From a virus, in IMG/VR virus record IMGVR_UViG_3300046812_000341, positions 1 to 21,463 of that record: a stretch of DNA of 21,463 bases. One strand, 5' to 3'. The notes beneath the pieces are model-generated. The model saw nothing but the letters and a program-made list of their open reading frames with translations. It searched no databases and was not told where the DNA came from. Numbering within the stretch: the first letter of the stretch is position 1; every line of letters starts with the position of its first letter. A program made the position numbers and the translations under genes. Below, piece after piece: positions 1,992-20,880 of the stretch.

Positions 1992-3293
1992 TTACGGTTG
2001 GCGGCTCACGCCGCTGCTCGGCAGGATGTTGTTGAAGAACCCGCAGCGGTACGGCATGCGCAGCACCGGCGCTTGATTGCTCAAGCAGCGGATTTGGCAG
2101 CCGGCGTTGCTCGGTAGCTCGAGGAAGAACCAGTCTTGGCCCTCACCGCGGAACGTGATGTCAGTCGAGCCGACACGCTTTCCGTTCATCGGCGAGAAGA
2201 ACATCGCCTGCCCTTCCTTCATGTACTTGTGAAGGGCGACGTCGACCTTGCCGGCCGGGCTCTTGTACTCGAGGTTGTTTGTGCCTTGGCGACGAACCTC
2301 GTCACCGTTGCCGGTGAAGCGTTGCAACGCATCCGCTTCCTCTGCGAGATCGGCAAAGCCGCCCGGCGCGAAGAACGCTTTGCCGCCCGTGTCGAGGCCG
2401 TTCGAGAACAGCTTCGACATCGCGTAGAGGATCTTCGAGCGCGTGGGCGCAGCCGAACCGAACGTGATGTTCGGCACCTTCCACATCGGAAACTGGTTCG
2501 CCGGAATGCCGAAGATCGTGCCGGCGTTCGTGCAGATGGCTTCGATGCCGATGCACGTCTTGCCCTGCCAGCCGGTCGGGATGAGCCGATCACCAGCGAC
2601 CGGCGTGTAACCGCCGCCGCTGCCGCCAGCGCCCACGCCCGTCAGCGTGATCGTGCGTAGGTCGGGGTTGACCGCCGTGACGATCGCCTTCGACGCGTTG
2701 ACCGTGACGCCCGCGGTGGCGATGACGTCCACCTGCGCGTTGATCATGTTGTTCCAGATGCCAGCGGCCCAGGAAGCAGCAGTGATCGTGATCGTTGCGC
2801 CGGCCGTGATCGTGCCGCCCGTGATGGGCGTGGTCACAACGCCGATGTCGCACGCGATGGTGCCGGTGTTGCCGCAGCCGTAGAGCAGCGACAGCTCGCG
2901 GTAGAACTCCATCGACTGCATCAGCAGCGAGGTCTTGAGCTCGAACGCGGTCTTGAACGCGTTGCCCGCACGACCGTCGCCGGCGCCGTTGCGGCCCTTG
3001 AACGTGACATCGTACGGGATGTTGCCGACCATCGCCAAGGTCGAGCCGTCGAGCGTCGCGTTCTTCAGCACCGAGTCGATCGCGCTGTTCAGCGCGAACG
3101 CAGTGCCCGTGTTGTCAGCCGTCTGGCCTTGCTCGAGCGAGACGACGACGGGGAAGTTGAATGCCTGGCCGGGGCGCTGGTCTTGCGGAACGAACTGAAA
3201 GAAGTCCGCAATCGTGTTCTCCTCCGGCAGAGGATTCGTGAAAATGCCGTATGTTTGCTTGTAGTTAGGTAGCCAGTTCGCGAGTGAACTCAT
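1992..3293 (-). CDS. Major capsid protein (coat), P22-like size and placement
   Basis: 433 aa, close to the 430 aa of P22 coat. The N-terminus (NWLPNYKQTYGIFTNPLPEE, then DQRPGQAFNFPV) resembles phage capsid N-arms. A helical spine-like stretch (FKTAFELKTSLLMQSMEFYRELSLLYG) lies near residues 115-140. Residues about 150-240 are Thr/Val/Gly/Ala-rich and beta-prone, which could be an inserted domain like the P22 I-domain (inference). The C-terminal half contains a typical capsid pattern with aromatic and Arg residues. The gene lies downstream of the scaffold and an 80-aa gene, and it is followed by a strong terminator, as expected for a highly expressed coat gene. The ATG at 3293 has only a weak ribosome binding site (GGTG). 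Identification rests on order, size and pattern. Confidence 0.82.
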   Translation of the reverse strand: MSSLANWLPNYKQTYGIFTNPLPEENTIADFFQFVPQDQRPGQAFNFPVVVSLEQGQTADNTGTAFALNSAIDSVLKNATLDGSTLAMVGNIPYDVTFKGRNGAGDGRAGNAFKTAFELKTSLLMQSMEFYRELSLLYGCGNTGTIACDIGVVTTPITGGTITAGATITITAASWAAGIWNNMINAQVDVIATAGVTVNASKAIVTAVNPDLRTITLTGVGAGGSGGGYTPVAGDRLIPTGWQGKTCIGIEAICTNAGTIFGIPANQFPMWKVPNITFGSAAPTRSKILYAMSKLFSNGLDTGGKAFFAPGGFADLAEEADALQRFTGNGDEVRRQGTNNLEYKSPAGKVDVALHKYMKEGQAMFFSPMNGKRVGSTDITFRGEGQDWFFLELPSNAGCQIRCLSNQAPVLRMPYRCGFFNNILPSSGVSRQP

Positions 3294-4958: not shown

Positions 4959-7094
4959 TTACGCCGCCCGTGGCGGCTGGTTCTGAAGGTTCGCGCCCGG
5001 TGGCGGGCTTGCGTCTGTGGGCAGCTTCACGCCGCTCGGATCGCGGCCTGCCGGCGCGTTGCCACTCGGCGGGCCACCGGGAGGTGGTGGCGCAGACGGT
5101 CCGCCCGCACCGGCCCCCGCAGCTGGCGGCGGCGGTGCTCCCATCATCATCGACATCTGCATCTGCCAAGTAGGCGAGCCGGGGATGGGAGGCGGCAGCG
5201 GGATGTTGAGCAGCGTCGCGAGGCGCGGGTCGATGTTCTGCCACGCTTCGATGTGCGACATGATGTGCTGCAGCACGCCGCCGACGAGGTTGCCGTCCGC
5301 GTTGTCTTGCGCGCTGAGCTTCTCGAGGAGAGCCCAGTGCTCCATCACGTGCTTGAACGGGTTGTCTCCAGCACCGACCTGCACCTCTTGGGTATTGCCG
5401 TTGCTGAGCTGCTCGTTCTCCCAAACGACGCGCAGGTCGCGCGATCGGCTGTCGTCCGAGTAGCCAGACCAATCGCCGGTGGTGAGCCCGCGCAGCACTG
5501 CGTCGCGCTTCTCGGGCTCGACGTCTTTCAGCGCTTGGAACATCTCGAAGCGACCCGCTTGCGAGCGGAGCATGGGGTTCGCGGTTTCTACTCGCACCTT
5601 ACGAACGCCGCTGACTGACTGCTTCGTGAACTCCCGCAGATACGGGCGCTCCGAGACTCCTGCGACCTCGACCAGGAACGGCGCGGTCGAGAACGACCGC
5701 ACCATGTCGAGCATCATGTTCGCCATGCGCTCGCGGAAACCATCGAGTGCGGCCTGACGCGCGCTTTGGAACTCGATGGCGATCGAGTGGAAGAGCGCCG
5801 CCATCTGGCCGCTCTTGATGTTGTCGCTCGGGTTGCCGCGCGCGACGCTGTTGAGACCGCTGATGCTCTGATGCCGCGCGTGCAGGTACTCGATGAACCA
5901 CTTCACCGACTCAGGCATGCTCGCGTAGTTGAGCGCCGTCGGCGGGTCGCTGCCGGGTGTCTTCGCGAGCGCGCGCAGGCCCATCGCGATCATCGACGCG
6001 TCGAGCTCGCTGCCCTTGTCGTAGACGATCGTGTTGCGCCCGAACGTCGACAGGTTGCTCGCGGTGTCCGAGCAAAGCTGGTCGATCATCTCTTGGATGC
6101 TGATGAGGTCCCACGAGTCGGCGTAACCGAACGCACTGCCGATGAACCGGCCGGCGCACAGATCGATCAGCGGTGTGCCTTCGGGCACGGGGCACGCGTC
6201 ATCCCAGAGCACCGAGGTGCCGCAGTATCCGAGGTAGCGGCCGTTGGGCATGGCGCGGCAGCGCGGGTGATAGAAGTGCTTGACGATGCAGTCGTCTTCG
6301 TCGTCGGGCCGGAAGTCGTGACCGAACAGGCGCTCGATGCAGTACTCGTCGAGCCCGGCCGTCGAGAGAATCTCCTCGGACTGGTCGGGGTAGGTCGCGG
6401 CGATCTCCCACTTGCTCGCGCGCTCACGCACGATGCTCCACGCGTCGGCGCGCACGCTCGGATCGAGCGCCACGTCCCACGGCGCGCACACATCGACGAA
6501 CGGCGCGCCTGACTTCGTCGTCTGCGGCATCTGCGCCGGCTGACCATCGGGGCCCATCACAGGCTGTCCATCGGCGCCCGTCACGGGCTGCATGGTCTTG
6601 ACGTCGTCGCCACCCTCGAAGTCCCAGCGCAGGTGCCCATACGCGGCGCCGAAGACGCCTTCGGCCTCGAGCACCTCGCGCTCCTTCGCTTCGCCGAGCG
6701 CCTTTTTGTAGAGGTACTCGACGATGGAATCGGCGATCTCGACGCTTGCGAGCGCGTCGTGGTCGCTGTTGAGCACGAGGCACTGGAAGGCAGGGCGGTC
6801 GCCGAGCGCGATCACGTTCTGCTGCTTGATGAAGCTGCGAACCTCGTTGATGCGGAAGCGCGTGAACTCGGCTTCCGGACCAACGCGCGCGGTGGTCTGC
6901 GTCGCGAGGTCGGTCGGGTTCGACGGGTCGGTGCCGTAGTACTGCGCCCACGCGATGGACCACATGCTCTTCAGGCCGCGACGTTCGGCGGCGGAGAAGT
7001 AGCGGCGTTCCTTGTCCTGGAGAACGTCGACGAGCTCCTGCGCGGGAAGAGCTGCCCAATACGTGTAGGTCGATTCGGAGTTGCCGTCTGGCAT
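4959..7094 (-). CDS. Portal protein
   Basis: 711 aa, near the length of the P22 portal (725 aa). The mid-region has long helices consistent with a portal stem and wing. One is around residues 385-410, where LHARHQSISGLNSVARG and a DNIKSGQMAALFHS segment occur; the latter is typical of portals that sample helical ring contacts. A further helix follows with ARQAALDGFRERMANMMLDM. The last 70 residues are Pro/Gly/Ala-rich and probably disordered. The portal forms the dodecameric DNA gate at one capsid vertex and docks the terminase. Gene order terminase-portal-scaffold-capsid supports the call. The start at ATG 7094 has a weak ribosome binding site. Confidence 0.85.
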   Translation of the reverse strand: MPDGNSESTYTYWAALPAQELVDVLQDKERRYFSAAERRGLKSMWSIAWAQYYGTDPSNPTDLATQTTARVGPEAEFTRFRINEVRSFIKQQNVIALGDRPAFQCLVLNSDHDALASVEIADSIVEYLYKKALGEAKEREVLEAEGVFGAAYGHLRWDFEGGDDVKTMQPVTGADGQPVMGPDGQPAQMPQTTKSGAPFVDVCAPWDVALDPSVRADAWSIVRERASKWEIAATYPDQSEEILSTAGLDEYCIERLFGHDFRPDDEDDCIVKHFYHPRCRAMPNGRYLGYCGTSVLWDDACPVPEGTPLIDLCAGRFIGSAFGYADSWDLISIQEMIDQLCSDTASNLSTFGRNTIVYDKGSELDASMIAMGLRALAKTPGSDPPTALNYASMPESVKWFIEYLHARHQSISGLNSVARGNPSDNIKSGQMAALFHSIAIEFQSARQAALDGFRERMANMMLDMVRSFSTAPFLVEVAGVSERPYLREFTKQSVSGVRKVRVETANPMLRSQAGRFEMFQALKDVEPEKRDAVLRGLTTGDWSGYSDDSRSRDLRVVWENEQLSNGNTQEVQVGAGDNPFKHVMEHWALLEKLSAQDNADGNLVGGVLQHIMSHIEAWQNIDPRLATLLNIPLPPPIPGSPTWQMQMSMMMGAPPPPAAGAGAGGPSAPPPPGGPPSGNAPAGRDPSGVKLPTDASPPPGANLQNQPPRAA

Positions 7095-8317: not shown

Positions 8318-8670
8318 TCGTCGATCGCTTCGTAGTCCTCGTCGGCGATGTTCCACACGGCGGGGATCGTCTTGGCCTCTTCGGCCGTGATCTTTCGGAG
8401 CACGCGGAGCTTGGGCATCCTCGACGCGTCGAGCTGGCTGAAGTCGAGCGCGGTCTCTTCGATCAGTTCGCTCATCGACTGGCGCTTGCCGTTGAACTTC
8501 TTGGCAGCGAACTCCTCGGCTTCGCCCAAGCTCTCGAGCGCGATGCGTCGGAAGTCCGCGCGCTGCTCCGCGTCGAAGTCGACGACCTCAGCGGCCTTGG
8601 TCTCGCGTTCTTTGGGCTCGATTGGGTCTGCCATGGCGGCGGCCAACCACCGGATGACCTTCAGCGCCAT
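8314..8670 (-). CDS. Small phage protein downstream of the large terminase, function unknown
   Basis: 118 aa. ATG 8670 has a strong ribosome binding site (GGAGG, 5 nt away) and overlaps the end of the terminase gene by 10 nt. The protein is charged and helical (IEPKERETKAAEVVDFDAEQ), with a second block containing KRQSMSELIEETALDFSQLD and a conserved-looking C-terminus (EAKTIPAVWNIADEDYEAI). No HTH or membrane segment is apparent. The position does not identify a small terminase, which is usually upstream of the large subunit. Confidence 0.72.
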   Translation of the reverse strand: MALKVIRWLAAAMADPIEPKERETKAAEVVDFDAEQRADFRRIALESLGEAEEFAAKKFNGKRQSMSELIEETALDFSQLDASRMPKLRVLRKITAEEAKTIPAVWNIADEDYEAIDE

Positions 8671-10259
8671 GATGTCCTCCGACCCACGGCGAACGTGTCG
8701 CGCATGCCCTTCAGCGCATGCGGCATGGCCTCGGGCGGCTGCAGGAAGAGCACGCCGCGGTCAGCTGCATCGACGTACGCGGGCGGGAACGGGTCATGGT
8801 TGCGGTGCGGCTGGAACATGCGCCAGAGGTACACGAGCATGTCGAGCAGGTCGTAGTGGCCGTGCTGCGGAGTGCGCTCGTAGTCGGTGCGGTTGTCGTT
8901 CCAGCGCGCCGTGCGCACGTGACTGATGAGCTTCACACAGCGCGGGTCGATCTCGATCTTGTCGTCGCGGAACGCGTTGCGCAGCGCGTAGAGTGCCGCT
9001 TCCTTGTCGTCTTTGAGCGTGTTCATCACCGCGATGCCGTAGTCGACGGTCAGGTCGCCGATGAGGCGTGTCTCGGTGTCCGACACGCGCTGCACAGGGT
9101 TCGCGCGGAACTCCTTGCCGTCCCACCACGACAGGCCCGCGGGCTTGTGGATGCCGAAGCCGCGCTTGCCGCCGAGCTCGCCGGCAGCGCCGTACAGCTC
9201 GAGCTCGGCCTCGCGGATGACCTGCGCCACCTGCGCGGTGCTGGCGTTCCTCTGCGCCCAATCACGCTCGACCACGAGCTTCGCACGCTTGGCATCCCAG
9301 TAGCCCCAGCCGAGCGCGAAGAGGTCGCGCATGCCCGGGTCCATCGCTGCCATCGCCACCGCGTATTCCGGCCGCTCCGAGGCGCGCACGTGCCGCGCTT
9401 CGTTGAACTCGGGGAGGACTTGCTGCTCGGGCGAAGCAGCGATCACGTTGAAGTACTCGCGCTCGCAGTTGACGTTGCCGCGACCGCCGGCCTGGCCGAT
9501 CCAAAAGTCTTTCTCGCGGCGCGTCAGCCGCGGGTTGTCCTCGATCGTCGCGCTGAAGCACGCGCCGCGCGCCTTCGCATCGGGCAAGATCGTCATCTCC
9601 CAGTCGGTGCCAAGCACCTCGGGCGCGCTCGTCTCCACCATCATCCGCGACCACGGCCGCTGATGGTACTGGTGGATGAGCACGTTGCGAACCGTGTAGT
9701 CGAGCTTGTCGATGAACGCGGCTTCCGAGATGAAGTCGAAGTCGTTGCCCTGCCCGCGCAGCGCATTCTTGTTCATGTCGAGACCGGCGAGCGCGAGTCG
9801 CGCGCCGAGCGTCGGGCCTTGCGCCGGCCAGTAGAAGCCTGCGGGCAGCGGTCCGCGCTTGCCGTGATAGCTGGGCTCACAGCTCGCTGGTGCTGTGCCG
9901 AACACCTGAGGCGCCACCGAGCCGATGATCTCGTCGATCGTCTTCTGAAAGGCGCTGGTGTAGCGCATCGAGACGGGCTTGCCGTACGTCTTGGCGAACC
10001 ACACCGCGAGCTCGTGGGCGACCCACAGCGCATCCGTGGTCTTTCCGAAGCGCTTGCCGCCCTCGACCGCGAACACGAGCGGCAGCGCGCCGTCGTCGTG
10101 CGTCAGCTCGAGCTGATCGATCGCGCGCCACGCGTGGAACTGGTTGCGCAGACGCAGCTGTCCATCGTGCATGAGCGGTGAGAGATTGCCGCTCTCCCAG
10201 AACGGCAGAAGCAGCTCTTCGAGTGAGCGGCCAGCAAGCTCTGGAGGCTCAGCGATCAA
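8661..10259 (-). CDS. terL: Terminase large subunit (DNA-packaging ATPase/nuclease)
   Basis: 532 aa. Walker A is GGKRFGKTT at residues about 67-75. A Walker B-like segment is FDFISEAAF at about 174-182, with Glu179 as candidate catalytic residue; the usual Asp before the Glu is Ser. C-terminal nuclease acidic residues are candidates at Asp307 (MAAMDPGMRD) and Asp470/Asp473 (HYDLLDMLVYLWR). The enzyme drives DNA into the capsid through the portal and cuts the concatemer. The start codon is TTG (10259-10257), sharing TTGA with the TGA stop of the upstream 46-aa gene, so initiation probably depends on coupling. Length and motif order fit large terminases. Confidence 0.88.
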   Translation of the reverse strand: MIAEPPELAGRSLEELLLPFWESGNLSPLMHDGQLRLRNQFHAWRAIDQLELTHDDGALPLVFAVEGGKRFGKTTDALWVAHELAVWFAKTYGKPVSMRYTSAFQKTIDEIIGSVAPQVFGTAPASCEPSYHGKRGPLPAGFYWPAQGPTLGARLALAGLDMNKNALRGQGNDFDFISEAAFIDKLDYTVRNVLIHQYHQRPWSRMMVETSAPEVLGTDWEMTILPDAKARGACFSATIEDNPRLTRREKDFWIGQAGGRGNVNCEREYFNVIAASPEQQVLPEFNEARHVRASERPEYAVAMAAMDPGMRDLFALGWGYWDAKRAKLVVERDWAQRNASTAQVAQVIREAELELYGAAGELGGKRGFGIHKPAGLSWWDGKEFRANPVQRVSDTETRLIGDLTVDYGIAVMNTLKDDKEAALYALRNAFRDDKIEIDPRCVKLISHVRTARWNDNRTDYERTPQHGHYDLLDMLVYLWRMFQPHRNHDPFPPAYVDAADRGVLFLQPPEAMPHALKGMRDTFAVGRRTSWR

Positions 10260-16403: not shown

Positions 16404-16670
16404 TCAAACGTCGTTCGCCGCCTTCGTGAGGTGCTGCATGACCTTCTTCATCCGGCGTTTCGCGCGGTCGTGGAGGTTGTCGGCGTCGATGCGTGCAGCA
16501 ACGGCGTGCGGCTCGGCAGCGCCGAAGTAGCGTGCCTCGATGTGACCGAGGTAGTGCAGCGCGTTGATTGCGGCCGCATACGCCTCGCCTATTTCGGTCG
16601 CAGGTGAAAGCGAATCCTCACTCCATACAGCCGGCGGTCGAGTTCGTGCGTGAGCTGAGCGTAGCGGCAT
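16404..16670 (-). CDS. 88-aa helical protein, function unknown (start uncertain)
   Basis: The C-terminal two thirds look like a real protein (EIGEAYAAAINALHYLGHIE, then ARIDADNLHDRAKRRMKKVM). The only normal start codon in frame is ATG 16670, which overlaps the RusA-like gene by 82 nt, an exception in this tightly packed genome. A non-standard start nearer to the RusA-like stop (around 16590) is possible but unproven. It is followed by a 5-bp hairpin (GAGCC-ATCTC-GGCTC) at 16389-16403 and then the leader box of the next gene. Confidence 0.6.
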   Translation of the reverse strand: MPLRSAHARTRPPAVWSEDSLSPATEIGEAYAAAINALHYLGHIEARYFGAAEPHAVAARIDADNLHDRAKRRMKKVMQHLTKAANDV

Positions 16671-17131
16671 GTCACAAGTCCTTTTCCGATGAGTTGGTCG
16701 TCGAACACTCCGATGCGTCTGCGGTCCTGCTCGTCGAAGTCATCGCCGCGCACGAGGTACGCGCACACGGCGTCGACGATGTGCTTGAACGACTGCGGGA
16801 GGTTGTCGTGCGCGTCGAGCGGCCTCGGCCCGATGCGTGTGAGGTCGAGCACGTTGACGCGCTCGCGGTCCATGCGCCGCAGCTGCGTTTGGCACGCGCA
16901 CAGCACTGTGTCGATCTGGCCGACCTTCAGCTTGTGCGCGCGGTGGCGGTTGCCGTTGACGTTCGACGCCTCGGTCTTGATCGGCAGCTGCAGCTCCCAG
17001 CCGTCCTCGCGCTCGATGAGGCACGGCTTGACGAAGTGCGCCGACTCGCGCGCGATGCGCTGCGACTTGTTGCCGCGAATCATCGACTTGAACGCGGCGA
17101 CCTGCTCGGGCGTGGCTTGCGTGCGGATCAT
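16589..17131 (-). CDS. rusA: RusA-like Holliday junction resolvase
   Basis: 180 aa from ATG 17131 (ATGA overlap with the previous stop). The core, TRIGPRPLDAHDNLPQSFKH followed by IVDAVCAYLVRGDDFDEQDR and then FDDQLIGKG, fits the RusA pattern of a DxxDN-type metal site, an AxxK-like helix with a further Asp, and a downstream DD pair. RusA dimers cleave four-way junctions in phage recombination and replication. The N-terminal part (QVAAFKSMIRGNKSQRIARE) is helical and the middle beta-rich, typical of the fold. The spacing DAHDN rather than DxDN is noted. Symbol given by similarity of motifs only. Confidence 0.75.
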   Translation of the reverse strand: MIRTQATPEQVAAFKSMIRGNKSQRIARESAHFVKPCLIEREDGWELQLPIKTEASNVNGNRHRAHKLKVGQIDTVLCACQTQLRRMDRERVNVLDLTRIGPRPLDAHDNLPQSFKHIVDAVCAYLVRGDDFDEQDRRRIGVFDDQLIGKGLVTCRYAQLTHELDRRLYGVRIRFHLRPK

Positions 17132-17379
17132 GCCTGCCCTCGCTTCGCCTGTCGCTCGGCGACGCACGCCGGGCACTGGCATGTGTCGGCAGCGCGCTTG
17201 GCGCTTTCATCGAGCGCGATCTCGTTGGCTTCGACGAGGAACCGCGCGACGACCGGGTTCTGCATGATGAGCGCCTGAATCGCCGTGCCGACACAGACGG
17301 CGCCGTGCTGGTCGACCAGCTTGTCGAGCGCGGTCAGTGTGTTCTCGAGTTGGTCGATCGTGATGTCGATTTTGGTCAT
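17128..17379 (-). CDS. 83-aa helical protein with C-terminal CxCPxC motif
   Basis: ATG 17379 overlaps the preceding stop (ATGA); the longer frame would overlap the gene before it. It begins MTKIDITIDQLENTLTALDK, continues LVDQHGAVCVGTAIQALIMQ, NPVVARFLVEANEIALDESA and ends KRAADTCQCPACVAERQAKR. The CQCPAC cluster near residues 69-74 may bind a metal, though a fourth ligand is not obvious. It sits between the RusA-like gene and the replication genes, so it probably acts in DNA metabolism. Family not recognised. Confidence 0.72.
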   Translation of the reverse strand: MTKIDITIDQLENTLTALDKLVDQHGAVCVGTAIQALIMQNPVVARFLVEANEIALDESAKRAADTCQCPACVAERQAKRGQA

Positions 17380-17882
17380 CGCACCCGCCTCTGCACTGCA
17401 GCCATCAGCTGCTTCTCGAACGGTTGGTCTTGTCCCGCCGGCGCTGAGCGCGGGATATCGGCGACGCCCCACAGCTCGCGGTGCCAGCGCCCGAACGCGA
17501 GCGCCATGCGCTTGTCGTTTTCGTCCGAGCTCTCCGCGAGCTTCAGCTGCGCCCACATGGTCGCGCGTAGGCGCCGCTCGAGCTCGCTCATCGCCAGCCG
17601 GCGCGCGGTGTGCGCCGTCAGGTAGGCGGCGAACTCGTCGGCGAGCTCGGTCGGAATCGGAGCGCCCTTGTGCCAACGCGCGAGCACATCCTCGCGAGAG
17701 AACTGCGCGCGAAGCGGAGCGTCTACCGGCCGGTACCGCTCGCGGTCGACGAACACCTGACGTGCGATGTCGAGCGCGGAGCCTTCGCGAGCGAGCGCGA
17801 CGTGGTGCGCCGCGATCGGGTCGCTGGCGTATACGCGAGGGTTGATCGCCTCGCGCAGCTGCTGCTCGGTGTCGCCCCTCAT
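17376..17882 (-). CDS. 168-aa phage protein downstream of the replication gene, function unknown
   Basis: ATG 17882 overlaps the replication-gene stop (ATGA). Charged and helical throughout, with blocks such as DTEQQLREAINPRVYASDP, REGSALDIARQVFVDRERYR and ARRLAMSELERRLRATMWAQ, ending in a basic tail. A Trp/His-rich centre (WHKGAPIPTELADEFAAYL) is notable. Position after a replication initiation-like gene suggests a helicase loader or partner (as lambda P follows O), but no ATPase motif is present, so this is inference only. Confidence 0.7.
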   Translation of the reverse strand: MRGDTEQQLREAINPRVYASDPIAAHHVALAREGSALDIARQVFVDRERYRPVDAPLRAQFSREDVLARWHKGAPIPTELADEFAAYLTAHTARRLAMSELERRLRATMWAQLKLAESSDENDKRMALAFGRWHRELWGVADIPRSAPAGQDQPFEKQLMAAVQRRVR

Positions 17883-18799
17883 GACGCCACCGCCGCGGTG
17901 TGAGACTTCAGCAGCCGCGTCTCGTGCGACCGGGCTTTTGAGAGTTCCGCCTCAGCCTGCTCGAGTGAGGGTTTGTACCACTTTTCCTCCTTGTCGAAGA
18001 ACGGGGCGTTTCGAAGTCGATTCACTTCGATCTGAGCCGCCCTGCAGGCCTCACGTGCCGCGGCGATTTCCTCCCGGGGCGTTGCCACCGACTGCTTGAG
18101 AACGGGCCGTGCGTCGCCGCCCAGGTACTTCTGCCAGTGCTTCCGCACGTGCTCCGGGCTGACCAGGTGCTTGTTGGCCATGCACCACGCATCGCCGCGG
18201 ATGGCCGCCGCGACGGTCGAGCGCTCGGCGTCGGGCTTGGAGCCCATGTAGGTGTACTGGTCGCGCCACGAGCCGGGAGCGGGCGCCGAAGTCGGCAGCA
18301 ACTCGAGCGTCTGGCAGTACCAAGTGAAGCCGACCAAGTCCGGTCGCGCGCGCGCGCTCTCTCTCGTCTCTTCTTTCTTGTCTGTCTTGTCTGTCTGTCG
18401 AACGTGAGTTGTGTCATTTCGCGGTGTTGAGTCGATTGGGATGTCGGACCCACGACCGTTTGCCAACGAGTCCACGACGTTGGCTGACAGGTCCGCGACA
18501 ACTCGACGCAGTTGGCTGTCAGGTCTGAAGCAAACCGATACCGTCTGCCCGTCGATCCAGAGCACCCCGCGAGCCTGAAGATCGAGCAGCGACTTGCGCG
18601 CGTTCGGCCGGTCGCGGCCATCGACCTGCATCTGCTTACAGAGCGACTCCAGCCAATCGCCTTCGACGGTCACCGGCTCGCCGTCGGCGAGCTCGAATAG
18701 GCTGAACATCAGCCCGCGCATGTGGAGCTTCGCGCCGGACCACGCCGCGTGGCGTTTGCGAGGCACGGGGCAGAAGTCGTAGCCAACGCGCCGACTCAT
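17879..18799 (-). CDS. Phage replication initiation-like protein
   Basis: 306 aa. ATG 18799 has a strong ribosome binding site (GGAGG, 6 nt away). Residues about 25-95 resemble a winged helix: HMRGLMFSLFELADGEPVTV, then WLESLCKQMQVDGRDRPNAR, KSLLDLQARGVLWIDGQTVS. A charged linker follows (residues about 125-155). Residues 155-230 form a second domain with WYCQTLELLPTS, AAIRGDAWCMANKHLVSPEH and VRKHWQKYLGG, a pattern typical of DnaD/lambda-O-like phage initiators. The C-terminus is helical. Such proteins bind the origin and recruit helicase. The gene itself carries iteron-like repeats (see below). Confidence 0.68.
   Translation of the reverse strand: MSRRVGYDFCPVPRKRHAAWSGAKLHMRGLMFSLFELADGEPVTVEGDWLESLCKQMQVDGRDRPNARKSLLDLQARGVLWIDGQTVSVCFRPDSQLRRVVADLSANVVDSLANGRGSDIPIDSTPRNDTTHVRQTDKTDKKEETRESARARPDLVGFTWYCQTLELLPTSAPAPGSWRDQYTYMGSKPDAERSTVAAAIRGDAWCMANKHLVSPEHVRKHWQKYLGGDARPVLKQSVATPREEIAAAREACRAAQIEVNRLRNAPFFDKEEKWYKPSLEQAEAELSKARSHETRLLKSHTAAVAS
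18479..18525. repeat. Iteron-like direct repeats inside the replication gene (candidate origin)
   Basis: GTTGGCTGACAGGTC at 18479-18493 and GTTGGCTGTCAGGTC at 18511-18525 are identical at 14 of 15 positions. They are 32 nt apart, not a multiple of three, so they encode different residues in the gene's frame: the repetition is kept at the DNA level. An inverted GCCAAC lies at 18462-18467. On the downstream side, a 43-nt pyrimidine tract with TCTGTCTTGTCTGTCTGTC occupies 18357-18399 and could be an unwinding element. The layout recalls lambda ori inside gene O. Confidence 0.5.
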
Positions 18800-19011
18800 G
18801 GCCGACCTCCGCGCGCGATGAGTGCCGCGATTGCGATCAGCACAGCGCTATGCGATCGATGCGGCGGGACCGCGTCGAGGGCGCATTGCGAGGGGCGGCC
18901 TTCCACAGTCAGCCCTTGCATTGCGCGGGGCGCGGCCCCATTATCGACGTGTTCGTTCTGTCTCTGTACGCCGCCCCGTTCCAGCAGGGCGGCGTTTCTG
19001 TTTGTGGTCAT
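18796..19011 (-). CDS. 71-aa protein, function unknown
   Basis: ATG 19011 overlaps the preceding stop (ATGA), and the stop at 18796 overlaps the replication gene start (ATGA). Sequence begins MTTNRNAALLERGGVQRQNE and ends in a hydrophobic helix (HSAVLIAIAALIARGGRP) that may insert into a membrane. The middle is Gly/Pro-rich and not convincingly folded. Part of the gene is shared with a GC-rich inverted repeat that resembles an intrinsic terminator on the plus strand, so the coding call is less sure than for its neighbours. Confidence 0.55.
   Translation of the reverse strand: MTTNRNAALLERGGVQRQNEHVDNGAAPRAMQGLTVEGRPSQCALDAVPPHRSHSAVLIAIAALIARGGRP
18927..19003 (+). ncRNA. Possible short antisense RNA (promoter plus terminator)
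   Basis: On the plus strand TTGCAT, a 17-bp spacer and CATTAT form a mediocre promoter. About 25 nt later CGCCGCCC (18969-18976) and GGGCGGCG (18987-18994) form a perfect 8-bp stem followed by TTTCTGTTTG (terminator-like). A transcript of roughly 40 nt would be antisense to the 71-aa gene and could act on its mRNA or on the replication gene downstream. Chance GC-rich pairing remains possible. Confidence 0.3.
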
Positions 19012-19346
19012 GACAACAGGTCTCCTTGTCGGTCTGACATCGTGGTCGGCTCGGAGCGGATGACCTCGCCGTCGCTTGCGATGAGCGACCAGTGCATCGA
19101 GTCCATCAGCCACCGGCACTGCACGGGAACGAGATGCTTGCCCATGCGCAAGTCATCCTTGAGCGCGAGCGCCTTCTTGCGATGACGATCGATCGCTTCC
19201 TTCGCTTCGGCAGCAGCAGCTTTCGCGGCTGCTTCGAGCTGTTGCATCTGGTGCACGTGCTCGGCGAGCTCGTTGCCCTTCTCGATGCGAACTTCCTCAC
19301 CAAACGGCCGTAGCAACATCCGCTCTTCGTCAGGTCTCTTCGCCAT
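19008..19346 (-). CDS. 112-aa helical early protein, function unknown
   Basis: ATG 19346 has a strong ribosome binding site (AAAGGAG, 6 nt away); the stretch GGAGACCGACATGG is identical to that at the 13690 gene. Residues about 25-70 form an acidic-to-basic coiled coil (NELAEHVHQMQQLEAAAKAA, then AAEAKEAIDRHRKKALALKD). A compact end follows with LVPVQCRWLMDSMHWSLIAS. It is the first gene after the leader with the long hairpin. Family not recognised. Confidence 0.75.
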   Translation of the reverse strand: MAKRPDEERMLLRPFGEEVRIEKGNELAEHVHQMQQLEAAAKAAAAEAKEAIDRHRKKALALKDDLRMGKHLVPVQCRWLMDSMHWSLIASDGEVIRSEPTTMSDRQGDLLS

Positions 19347-19585
19347 GTCGGTCTCCTTTAGTGAATAGGGCGCACGCCGCCGTCAGCTGCATCGAGGGGG
19401 GACACGATGTCAGCCGACGGCGGCGGAGCGCGAGCGACCGCGCGCACGCAAGGCCGCTAAGTGCGCAGCAAATCGCCCGAGTCGAGAACGCGCCTGCAAT
19501 GGGTCATTGCGTCTGTGGTGCGCGGTCCCGACTCCGATGATCAGATGCGATAGCTTGCGACTAACGACGCTGTGACCACAGGAGG
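19347..19585. other. Intergenic region between the Cro-like gene and the early operon
   Basis: 239 nt. Besides the hairpin at 19375-19425 it contains CTGTG-AC-CACAG at 19570-19581 (5-bp dyad right after the HTH gene stop) and TGCGA-TAGCT-TGCGA near 19547. I found no promoter with good -35 and -10 boxes for the leftward early operon; it may be read through from the HTH gene. Confidence 0.4.
19375..19425. promoter_or_regulatory. Long imperfect hairpin in the leader of the leftward operon
   Basis: CGCCGCCGTC at 19375-19384 pairs with GACGGCGGCG at 19416-19425 (10 bp). Within the loop GCTG pairs with CAGC, then CATCG with CGATG, leaving a loop AGGGGGGACA (TGTCCCCCCT in the minus-strand transcript). 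The stem ends about 20 nt upstream of the ribosome binding site of the 19346 gene. It is not followed by a U run in either direction, so it is not a simple terminator. A translational control element, RNA-protein binding site or origin-like structure are options. Confidence 0.65.
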
Positions 19586-19804
19586 TCATGCAGCTTGAAC
19601 CCCCGCGACCAGCTCACCGATTGGGACACGCAGCGCCGCGGCGACGAGCCGCAGCGTCGAGAACGACGGCTCGACAAGGTCCGCCTCCCAGCGGTAGACC
19701 GTTGCCGTACATCGCCCGATCTTCCGGCCAAGCTGCGGCTGGGAGAGTCCCTGCTTCTCGCGGGCGTTCTTGATGCGGGTTCCCAATGTTCGCGCCATAT
19801 GCAT
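19586..19804 (-). CDS. Cro-like XRE-family HTH repressor
   Basis: 72 aa. MHMARTLGTRIKNAREKQGL starts the protein, then SQPQLGRKIGRCTATVYRWE and ADLVEPSFSTLRLVAAALRV form a typical five-helix XRE domain with recognition helix near CTATVYRW. No other domain. It is the first leftward gene and faces the 143-aa HTH gene across 77 nt, like cro facing cI. The ATG (19804) or ATG two codons later lies inside the operator-like inverted repeat CATATGCATC, and no ribosome binding site is visible before either, so the transcript may be leaderless or autoregulated by the same sequence. Confidence 0.8.
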   Translation of the reverse strand: MHMARTLGTRIKNAREKQGLSQPQLGRKIGRCTATVYRWEADLVEPSFSTLRLVAAALRVPIGELVAGVQAA

Positions 19805-19854
19805 CTAATGTGTATGCGCGATCGAATGAAAAGGCAAGCGGTTCGATGCATATG
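19796..19854. promoter_or_regulatory. Divergent operator region with CATATGCATC inverted repeat
   Basis: CATATGCATC at 19796-19805 and its exact complement GATGCATATG at 19845-19854 flank the centre between the two HTH genes; TGTATGCG lies between at 19811-19818. The second copy places a CATATG hexamer (19849-19854) at -10 distance from a start near 19861, which would give the rightward gene a 21-nt leader with AAGAGG. The pattern suggests binding by one or both HTH proteins. Confidence 0.6.
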
Positions 19855-19881
19855 CTGAATGAGCCGTCGCAAGAGGCGGAA

Positions 19882-20313
19882 ATGTCTGTTCATCTCATGA
19901 AGATGAGCGACAAGGCGATTGGCAGGCGCATCAAGTCGGCACGGACATCCGCCGGGCTAGGACAGGCGGAGATGGGCCGAAGGATGGGGGTTTCCAACAC
20001 CACCGCGTGGCGATGGGAAAGCGGAAAGACATCCGTCCCGCTGCCGAAGTTGCGGAAAATAGCGGAGCTCCTCAAGGTCGGGATGGAGCAGCTTTTGCCT
20101 CCGGTCCGGCTTGTGGATGCCGAAGCGGATACAGCGCCCGCAGACCCTGAGGAGCACGTTCATATCGCGCAGCTGGCGCTCGCGGTCGCTCGCGAGCCAA
20201 GCAACGCCGCAGCGGTCAAGAGGTTCGACGATGCGGTGATGCGCCGAGCGCGCCGGCTACTGGCCGCGAAGATGCGTCACAGCGACAAAGACGACGACGA
20301 CGCCGGCGTCTAG
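19882..20313 (+). CDS. CI-like XRE-family HTH repressor
   Basis: 143 aa from ATG 19882, chosen because AAGAGG sits 5 nt upstream; in-frame ATGs at 19846 and 19852 add a few residues and overlap the operator. MSVHLMKMSDKAIGRRIKSA opens the protein, then RTSAGLGQAEMGRRMGVSNT and TAWRWESGKTSVPLPKLRKI form the XRE domain with recognition helix NTTAWRWE. The remaining 70 residues are helical and acidic with a basic end (RRARRLLAAKM, DKDDDDAGV); no LexA/CI-type peptidase motif is seen. It is the longer of the two divergent regulators and probably the lysogeny repressor. It ends sharing CTAG with the convergent gene. Confidence 0.78.
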   Translation: MSVHLMKMSDKAIGRRIKSARTSAGLGQAEMGRRMGVSNTTAWRWESGKTSVPLPKLRKIAELLKVGMEQLLPPVRLVDAEADTAPADPEEHVHIAQLALAVAREPSNAAAVKRFDDAVMRRARRLLAAKMRHSDKDDDDAGV

Positions 20314-20507
20314 CGCACGCACTCAAACTCCCAGCGGCAGTTTCGGCCGCTGTAGTCGCATACGCACGTCGGCCTCATCGCTCGACAGCCGATCGGTGGA
20401 ATCGGCGGCAGCGGAGCGAGGCCGCAGCCGTTGGCGGCGGCGGCTGGCTCGGTTGGTGTTAGCCACAGGCAACCGATCGTCATCAGCAAGAACAGGCAGT
20501 GTTTCAT
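20310..20507 (-). CDS. Secreted Cys-rich small protein (CGLxPLPPIPPxGC type)
   Basis: 65 aa with a signal peptide (MKHCLFLLMTIGCLWLTPTE, cleavage probably after PAAAA). The mature part is NGCGLAPLPPIPPIGCRAM, then PTCVCDYSGRNCRWEFECV: six or more Cys with a Pro-rich centre, of a type I recall from small phage-encoded exported proteins. The start has GAGGGG 7 nt upstream. Its TAG shares the palindromic CTAG with the convergent repressor stop. It overlaps the C-terminal part of the next minus-strand frame by 185 nt. Function unknown. Confidence 0.72.
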   Translation of the reverse strand: MKHCLFLLMTIGCLWLTPTEPAAAANGCGLAPLPPIPPIGCRAMRPTCVCDYSGRNCRWEFECVR

Positions 20508-20832
20508 CGTCGGGCCCCTCGGGTGAGATGGATGGCCGCACGATATGCAGGCCCCTGCGGTCTCGCCACTTGGCTGTCTGTTCAGCGATCTCTTCTAGCT
20601 GCCTCCATACGGGCTGCTCTGCCTCGTAGATGAGCTTCACCCCATCCAGGTAGGCCGGCCCACATCCGAGTCGCGGAGTCAGGCGTAAACCTGACAGGTA
20701 CGCGTCGGCAAACGGACAACCTGTAACCTCGCTGACTTGTGAGTTCCGCAAAGCCCACCCCTTTTGTGAGGTGGCGAGAAGTACCACGCGGCTACTTGCT
20801 GCCGGAAAGCCACGAATGGGACGCTGTCGCAT
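20323..20832 (-). CDS. Excisionase-like DNA-binding protein (C-terminus uncertain)
   Basis: About 169 aa from ATG 20832, though upstream starts are possible and no good ribosome binding site exists. The segment ALRNSQVSEVTGCPFADAYL followed by SGLRLTPRLGCGPAYLDGVK and LIYEAEQPVWRQLEEIAEQT resembles short HTH/excisionase-like proteins with PRLGxGPxY (inference). The last third is Arg/Ser/Asp-rich and lies under the secreted Cys-rich gene, so the true stop may differ. Codon use is lower in G/C at the third position than its neighbours, suggesting later acquisition. Converges on the CI-like gene. Confidence 0.5.
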   Translation of the reverse strand: MRQRPIRGFPAASSRVVLLATSQKGWALRNSQVSEVTGCPFADAYLSGLRLTPRLGCGPAYLDGVKLIYEAEQPVWRQLEEIAEQTAKWRDRRGLHIVRPSISPEGPDDETLPVLADDDRLPVANTNRASRRRQRLRPRSAAADSTDRLSSDEADVRMRLQRPKLPLGV

Positions 20833-20880
20833 TTTGGTAGCACCTATGCAGCACCTGTAAGCATCGCGCCGATTTTTTTC

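Follow-up and report, generated by a model that had tools for sequence, protein, structure and literature searches.

A candidate replication origin embedded in a putative initiator gene of a high-GC phage

Origins of replication that lie inside the gene for their own initiator have been described in phage lambda, where ori-lambda is located within O, and in SPP1, where oriL is located within gene 38 (PMC5043065, PMC7466680, PMC6316719). For lambda, two iterons together with the AT-rich region are given as enough for unwinding (Dodson et al. 1986, in the form in which PMC7466680 cites that work). SPP1 initiation also requires the helicase loader gp39, and SPP1 has two origins, oriL and oriR (PMC6316719). 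The principle of iterons placed beside an AT-rich stretch is known from iteron plasmids as well (PMC5043065). Here, we describe a locus of comparable layout in the window, i.e., the whole stretch of 21,463 nucleotides that was analyzed (IMG/VR virus record IMGVR_UViG_3300046812_000341, positions 1-21,463), a high-GC phage fragment from an incomplete record; the host is probably a high-GC bacterium. We put at roughly 75% the probability that gene 17879-18799 encodes a replication initiator and that positions 18357-18525 inside it constitute the replication origin of this phage, or one of its origins. The genes relevant to this reading are as follows:

1992-3293, minus strand: capsid gene
4959-7094, minus strand: portal gene
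8661-10259, minus strand: terminase gene
16589-17182, minus strand: RusA-like resolvase candidate (motif LD..DN...FKH..D, kept in 3/3 genomes)
17376-17882, minus strand: 168-aa gene overlapping the initiator gene by 4 nt (ATGA); product predicted to be all-helical (AF2 pLDDT 79)
17879-18799, minus strand: candidate replication initiator gene, 306 aa (role assigned from layout and synteny)
19586-19804, minus strand: Cro/CI-type HTH regulator (Pfam HTH_3, E 5e-11), upstream of the replication genes
19786-20313, plus strand: Cro/CI-type regulator

The block runs from the Cro/CI-type regulators through gene 17879-18799 (minus strand) and the overlapping gene 17376-17882 to the RusA-motif gene. A cro-like regulator upstream and a small overlapping gene downstream, in the place of P or a P-like gene, are shared with lambda and P22, and the RusA-like candidate lies downstream, as the RusA-like gene does in lambdoid phages. 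This candidate is called RusA-like by motif only, because Pfam and PDB searches with 16589-17182 returned no match. Gene 17376-17882 adjoins the initiator gene in all three genomes compared (the window and the relatives G1 and G3, described below) and is, by its position in the place of lambda P or SPP1 gp39, a candidate helicase loader; its product matched no family, and hhalign against lambda P gave no match. No DnaB-type helicase gene was recognized in the scanned genes. A hairpin with an 11-bp stem at 18968-18995, between gene 19008-19346 and the initiator gene, is perhaps a terminator or antitermination site; in the phage that carries relative L002, the corresponding place (L006 4797-4825) holds a hairpin with another sequence. 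Another close repeat pair, GCATTGCG[AC]GGGGCG, lies at 18883-18897 and 18918-18932, 35 nt apart, in the leader immediately ahead of the initiator gene.

For the 306-aa protein, an AF2 model built from three sequences (mean pLDDT 68.7) predicts an N-terminal domain at about residues 18-91 (pLDDT about 80), with helices at 25-38, 49-56, and 61-76 and two strands. From the order of predicted secondary structure alone, this domain resembles a winged helix. Residues 92-150 are predicted to form a disordered linker (pLDDT <50), followed by a helical C-terminal part (residues 153-225) and a coiled coil (residues 241-299). The disordered segment is exactly the stretch encoded by the repeats, core, and tract discussed below. 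No family was found for the initiator protein in Pfam, PHROGs, NCBIfam, or PDB sequences, and a weak match to DUF7833 (E 0.0015, L007 only) was rejected as falling below the family cut-off. None of the three homologous proteins matched PF04492 (Phage_rep_O) at E values up to 5, a search in which lambda O, the positive control, matched at 6e-36; hhalign of the initiator against lambda O gave a probability of 0.1%. By any test run, then, the initiator is not a member of Pfam Phage_rep_O. Since the replication proteins of this locus lack detectable sequence or profile similarity to lambda O and P, the match to lambda is one of arrangement, not of family.

Within the initiator gene, the candidate origin is made up of the following elements:

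18511-18525, minus strand: iteron 1, GACCTGACAGCCAAC (coding strand)
18479-18493, minus strand: iteron 2, GACCTGTCAGCCAAC (coding strand)
18426-18457, minus strand: conserved core, GGTCGTGGGTCCGACATCCCAATCGACTCAAC, 32 nt identical in L002 (codon and DNA alignment)
18374-18466, minus strand: AT-biased stretch with A/T-shifted synonymous codons (z about -5)
18357-18399, minus strand: purine-rich tract on the coding strand (pyrimidine-rich on the plus strand), 37/43

The preliminary description of this DNA had reported two 15-bp repeats, 14/15 identical and 32 nt apart, in different reading frames, and these were found as GTTGGCTGACAGGTC at 18479-18493 and GTTGGCTGTCAGGTC at 18511-18525 on the plus strand, with 17 nt between the copies. 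Because the 32-nt distance from start to start is not a multiple of 3, the copies are read in different frames (they translate as ADLSAN and RPDSQL), and one reading frame therefore cannot account for both. The accompanying claim was that selection on the protein is insufficient to explain the repeats; of 2,000 synonymous-codon shuffles with the protein preserved, 0.45% contained an off-frame pair of at least 14/15 identity lying no more than 100 nt apart. Pairs this good and this close, in any frame, occur four times in the 21-kb window; the pair alone is therefore suggestive, and the case is carried by conservation. A third copy of the 15-mer with up to two mismatches is absent from the whole 21,463-nt window, and further degenerate iterons at a phasing of 21/53 nt were rejected as indistinguishable from chance matches.

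Relatives were sought among IMG/VR records by terminase and profile searches. Across the viral and genome-contig scans, only two records carry the initiator gene:

L002:245-1210, genome G1 (41.1 kb): initiator gene, 47% amino acid identity to the window protein
L007:2881-3861, genome G3 (43 kb, IMGVR_UViG_3300048998_000084): initiator gene, 44% amino acid identity

The conservation case rests on these two relatives, which share ancestry. A tblastn search of 50,697 phage records gave no match, and neither the initiator gene nor the next gene was matched in the TerL relatives L025 and L026 or in L003, a fragment ending close to TerL. A DNA-pattern scan with the conserved core retrieved the two known records and six unrelated low-GC contigs. 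The integrase carried by G1 suggests that the phage group is probably temperate; it lies in the left arm at 19030-20235, together with a SpoU-type rRNA methylase gene at 20351-20839, and the gene for an AAA_24/Sak4-like recombination ATPase (L020 985-2223, equivalent to G1 20985-22223) adjoins both. The L007 record has a 127-bp terminal direct repeat and may therefore be a complete circular map.

Conservation of the repeats at the DNA level, which the preliminary description had set as a check, was found in L002, where both are kept at the identical 32-nt spacing: repeat 1 is exact over 18 nt (CGACCTGACAGCCAACTG), and repeat 2 has one change in its first 12 nt. Repeat 2 is partly eroded in this relative, and the 21 nt that directly follow it in the window are absent there. 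The motif GACYTGWCAGCC, without mismatch, occurs nowhere else in the 41 kb of G1. A 12-nt match in L002 to a lambda iteron (CCCTCAAAACGA) was dismissed as coincidence, as it occurs once and is absent from the window and G3. In L007, neither 15-bp repeat is present; the homologous place (3193-3276) holds an 11-bp unit, ACCGTCGAACG and variants, in 7.6 tandem copies. The unit is unrelated to the 15-bp repeats, and the array occurs nowhere else in the 43 kb of G3. With a period of 11 nt, the frame shifts from copy to copy; at lag 11, the array matches itself at 59/73 positions, more than in any of 300 synonymous shuffles (maximum, 49). The proposed origin withstands the conservation check: L002 retains the repeats, a different tandem iteron array occupies the homologous position in L007, and the same segment is under synonymous-site constraint.

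This constraint was measured with a codon-usage-aware model of synonymous retention, with P values obtained by window-scan permutation. Between the window and L002, retention across codons 90-135 was 0.66, versus 0.17 elsewhere in the gene (2dlnL 12.8, P = 0.0036), and between the window and L007, it was 0.49 versus 0.05 (P = 0.0004); the scan permutation P values across the three pairs were 0.0036, 0.0004, and 0.0042. Rare codons are among those retained within 18426-18457 in the window and L002. Simply counting identical codons gave a marginal result (region P = 0.018, scan P = 0.45) because the GC-rich codon bias inflates the background, which codon-usage weighting resolved. The synonymous-site tests show DNA-level constraint in the repeat/core segment.

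Within the core, the pattern ACATCCCA...GASTCAA is common to the window, L002, and L007. From the core through the end of the purine tract, codons are shifted to A/T beyond what protein sequence and codon usage predict in all three genes, with z values of -5.0 in the window gene, -6.5 in L002, and -7.0 in L007. Each value is the minimum of its own gene, and these minima rank third (window), second (L002), and first (L007) among the genes of their records; a few other genes show comparable synonymous AT-dips, several of which lie close to a gene start. From this composition, the stretch 18374-18466 is likely the unwinding element. Positions 18374-18444 and the homologous positions of L002 and L007 also contain two GA[CG]TCAA-like motifs about 18 to 20 nt apart, clearest in L002 (AATCGACTCAAC and AAACGACTCAAC), which are a possible host-factor site. 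As for the 43-nt pyrimidine tract that the preliminary description placed downstream of the repeats, it includes the one 40-mer in the window to reach 85% purine or pyrimidine and is the strongest of its kind there, but it is not pure, containing six G residues (37/43, 86%); the word downstream applies in the gene sense (minus strand), with about 80 nt separating the tract from the nearer repeat. A purine tract is also present at the corresponding place in L002, where it is the sole one in the G1 genome, and in L007. The linker peptides differ among the three proteins, and the purine-rich composition of the DNA is retained.

For comparison with characterized origins, lambda O (NC_001416) and P22 gene 18 (NC_002371) were analyzed as controls, and SPP1 was compared by its published description. 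In the lambda O gene, the annotated iterons occupy nucleotides 349-433, the GC minimum falls at 435, and the purine maximum falls at 430; in the window gene, the repeats occupy nucleotides 275-321, with the GC minimum at 390 and the purine maximum at 404. In lambda O and P22 gene 18, too, the origin is marked by a synonymous AT-dip, a weaker one. Both controls show the same order of parts as the window gene, namely, iterons and then an AT-rich, purine-asymmetric stretch, located between the N- and C-terminal parts of the protein, which supports the lambda-O arrangement first proposed for this gene. The details differ: lambda has four 18- to 19-bp inverted-repeat iterons, whereas the window has two 15-bp direct repeats and L007 has seven 11-bp repeats, and in the window (GC 65%), unlike in lambda, a spacer of about 80 nt with the conserved core separates the iterons from the purine tract. 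With SPP1 gene 38 and oriL, the locus shares direct repeats and an AT-rich unwinding element inside the initiator gene, although no second origin was seen here. Iteron plasmids of the P1, F, and RK2 type likewise combine an AT-rich stretch with adjacent tandem direct repeats of a period close to one helical turn (11 bp in L007); in the phage genes, however, the repeats lie inside rather than beside the initiator gene, and no Rep-family match was found. Altogether, the gene presents repeated, frame-independent motifs that are kept in relatives, an adjacent element that is AT-rich and strand-asymmetric in sequence, and, by AF2 prediction, a DNA-binding domain linked to a distinct C-terminal domain through the stretch containing the candidate origin.

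Given this layout, we infer a mode of initiation like that of lambda O, P22 gp18, or SPP1 gp38, in which the winged-helix N-terminal domain would bind the two iterons and the resulting complex would melt the adjoining AT-biased, strand-asymmetric stretch (conserved core and purine tract). Delivery of the host replicative helicase would then fall to the helical C-terminal part, probably together with the product of gene 17376-17882. We propose that the origin sits in the stretch encoding the disordered linker because the protein tolerates a DNA-dictated sequence there.

That same disorder invites a reading without any DNA function, in which the repeats and purine tract are by-products of a fast-drifting linker, produced by slippage (ACAG/GA repeats and expansion of the 11-mer). 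The segment is indeed microsatellite-like in the window and L007, and the type of repeat varies among relatives. Neutral drift, however, predicts fewer retained synonymous sites, not more, and a 32-nt stretch (18426-18457) is identical, with rare codons kept, in a gene otherwise near saturation. The retained 32-nt repeat spacing in L002 and the A/T bias beyond codon usage in 3/3 genes also speak against slippage by itself, and we consider this explanation unlikely.

The segment could instead be another kind of cis-acting site, such as an operator used by the winged-helix protein to repress its own operon, or a recombination or packaging site. In favor of such a site, the protein is predicted to bind DNA through a winged helix, and its function is inferred from layout alone. 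An operator about 275 to 445 nt inside a transcribed gene would nevertheless be unusual. Repeats beside an AT-biased, purine-asymmetric element in an interdomain linker are the origin layout of lambda and P22, and a gene with a RusA-like motif belongs to the same operon; we regard these other functions as quite improbable. Replication might also start elsewhere, e.g., in noncoding DNA near the regulators, leaving the present element as a secondary or vestigial origin, in analogy to the oriL/oriR pair of SPP1 (PMC6316719). This option gains from the incompleteness of the window record and from GC skew, a check proposed in the preliminary description, which does not single out the element: no clean switch occurs there, skew being confounded by gene orientation and by the fragmentary state of the window. 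The best skew change point in G1 lies at 26,129, on the purine tract, with gene orientation changing nearby, and the detrended skew minimum is at 23,679; G3 gives no significant signal. Since no further repeat copies occur in the window or in the genomes of the two relatives, we hold an origin elsewhere to be very improbable.

An origin within gene 17879-18799 therefore remains our preferred reading. The layout of an iteron origin embedded in an initiator gene is known; what this locus adds is that homologous initiators differ in the type of iteron they carry and otherwise keep the layout. We tentatively suggest, at somewhat less than even odds, an unrecognized family of initiators in temperate phages, in which the embedded iterons have been replaced wholesale (two members have two 15-bp repeats spaced 32 nt apart, and the third has seven 11-bp repeats), with the domain layout, core, and melting tract kept. 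The analysis yields a candidate origin for an unannotated phage group, derived from sequence alone, and suggests a general route to unknown initiators and origins through disordered linkers that combine frozen or AT-biased codons with off-frame repeats. With iterons replaced between homologous initiators, swapping would allow the study of how an initiator and its binding site co-evolve. If the proposed replacement is true, initiator specificity and origin would change jointly within the disordered linker, which would serve as an evolutionary "slot".
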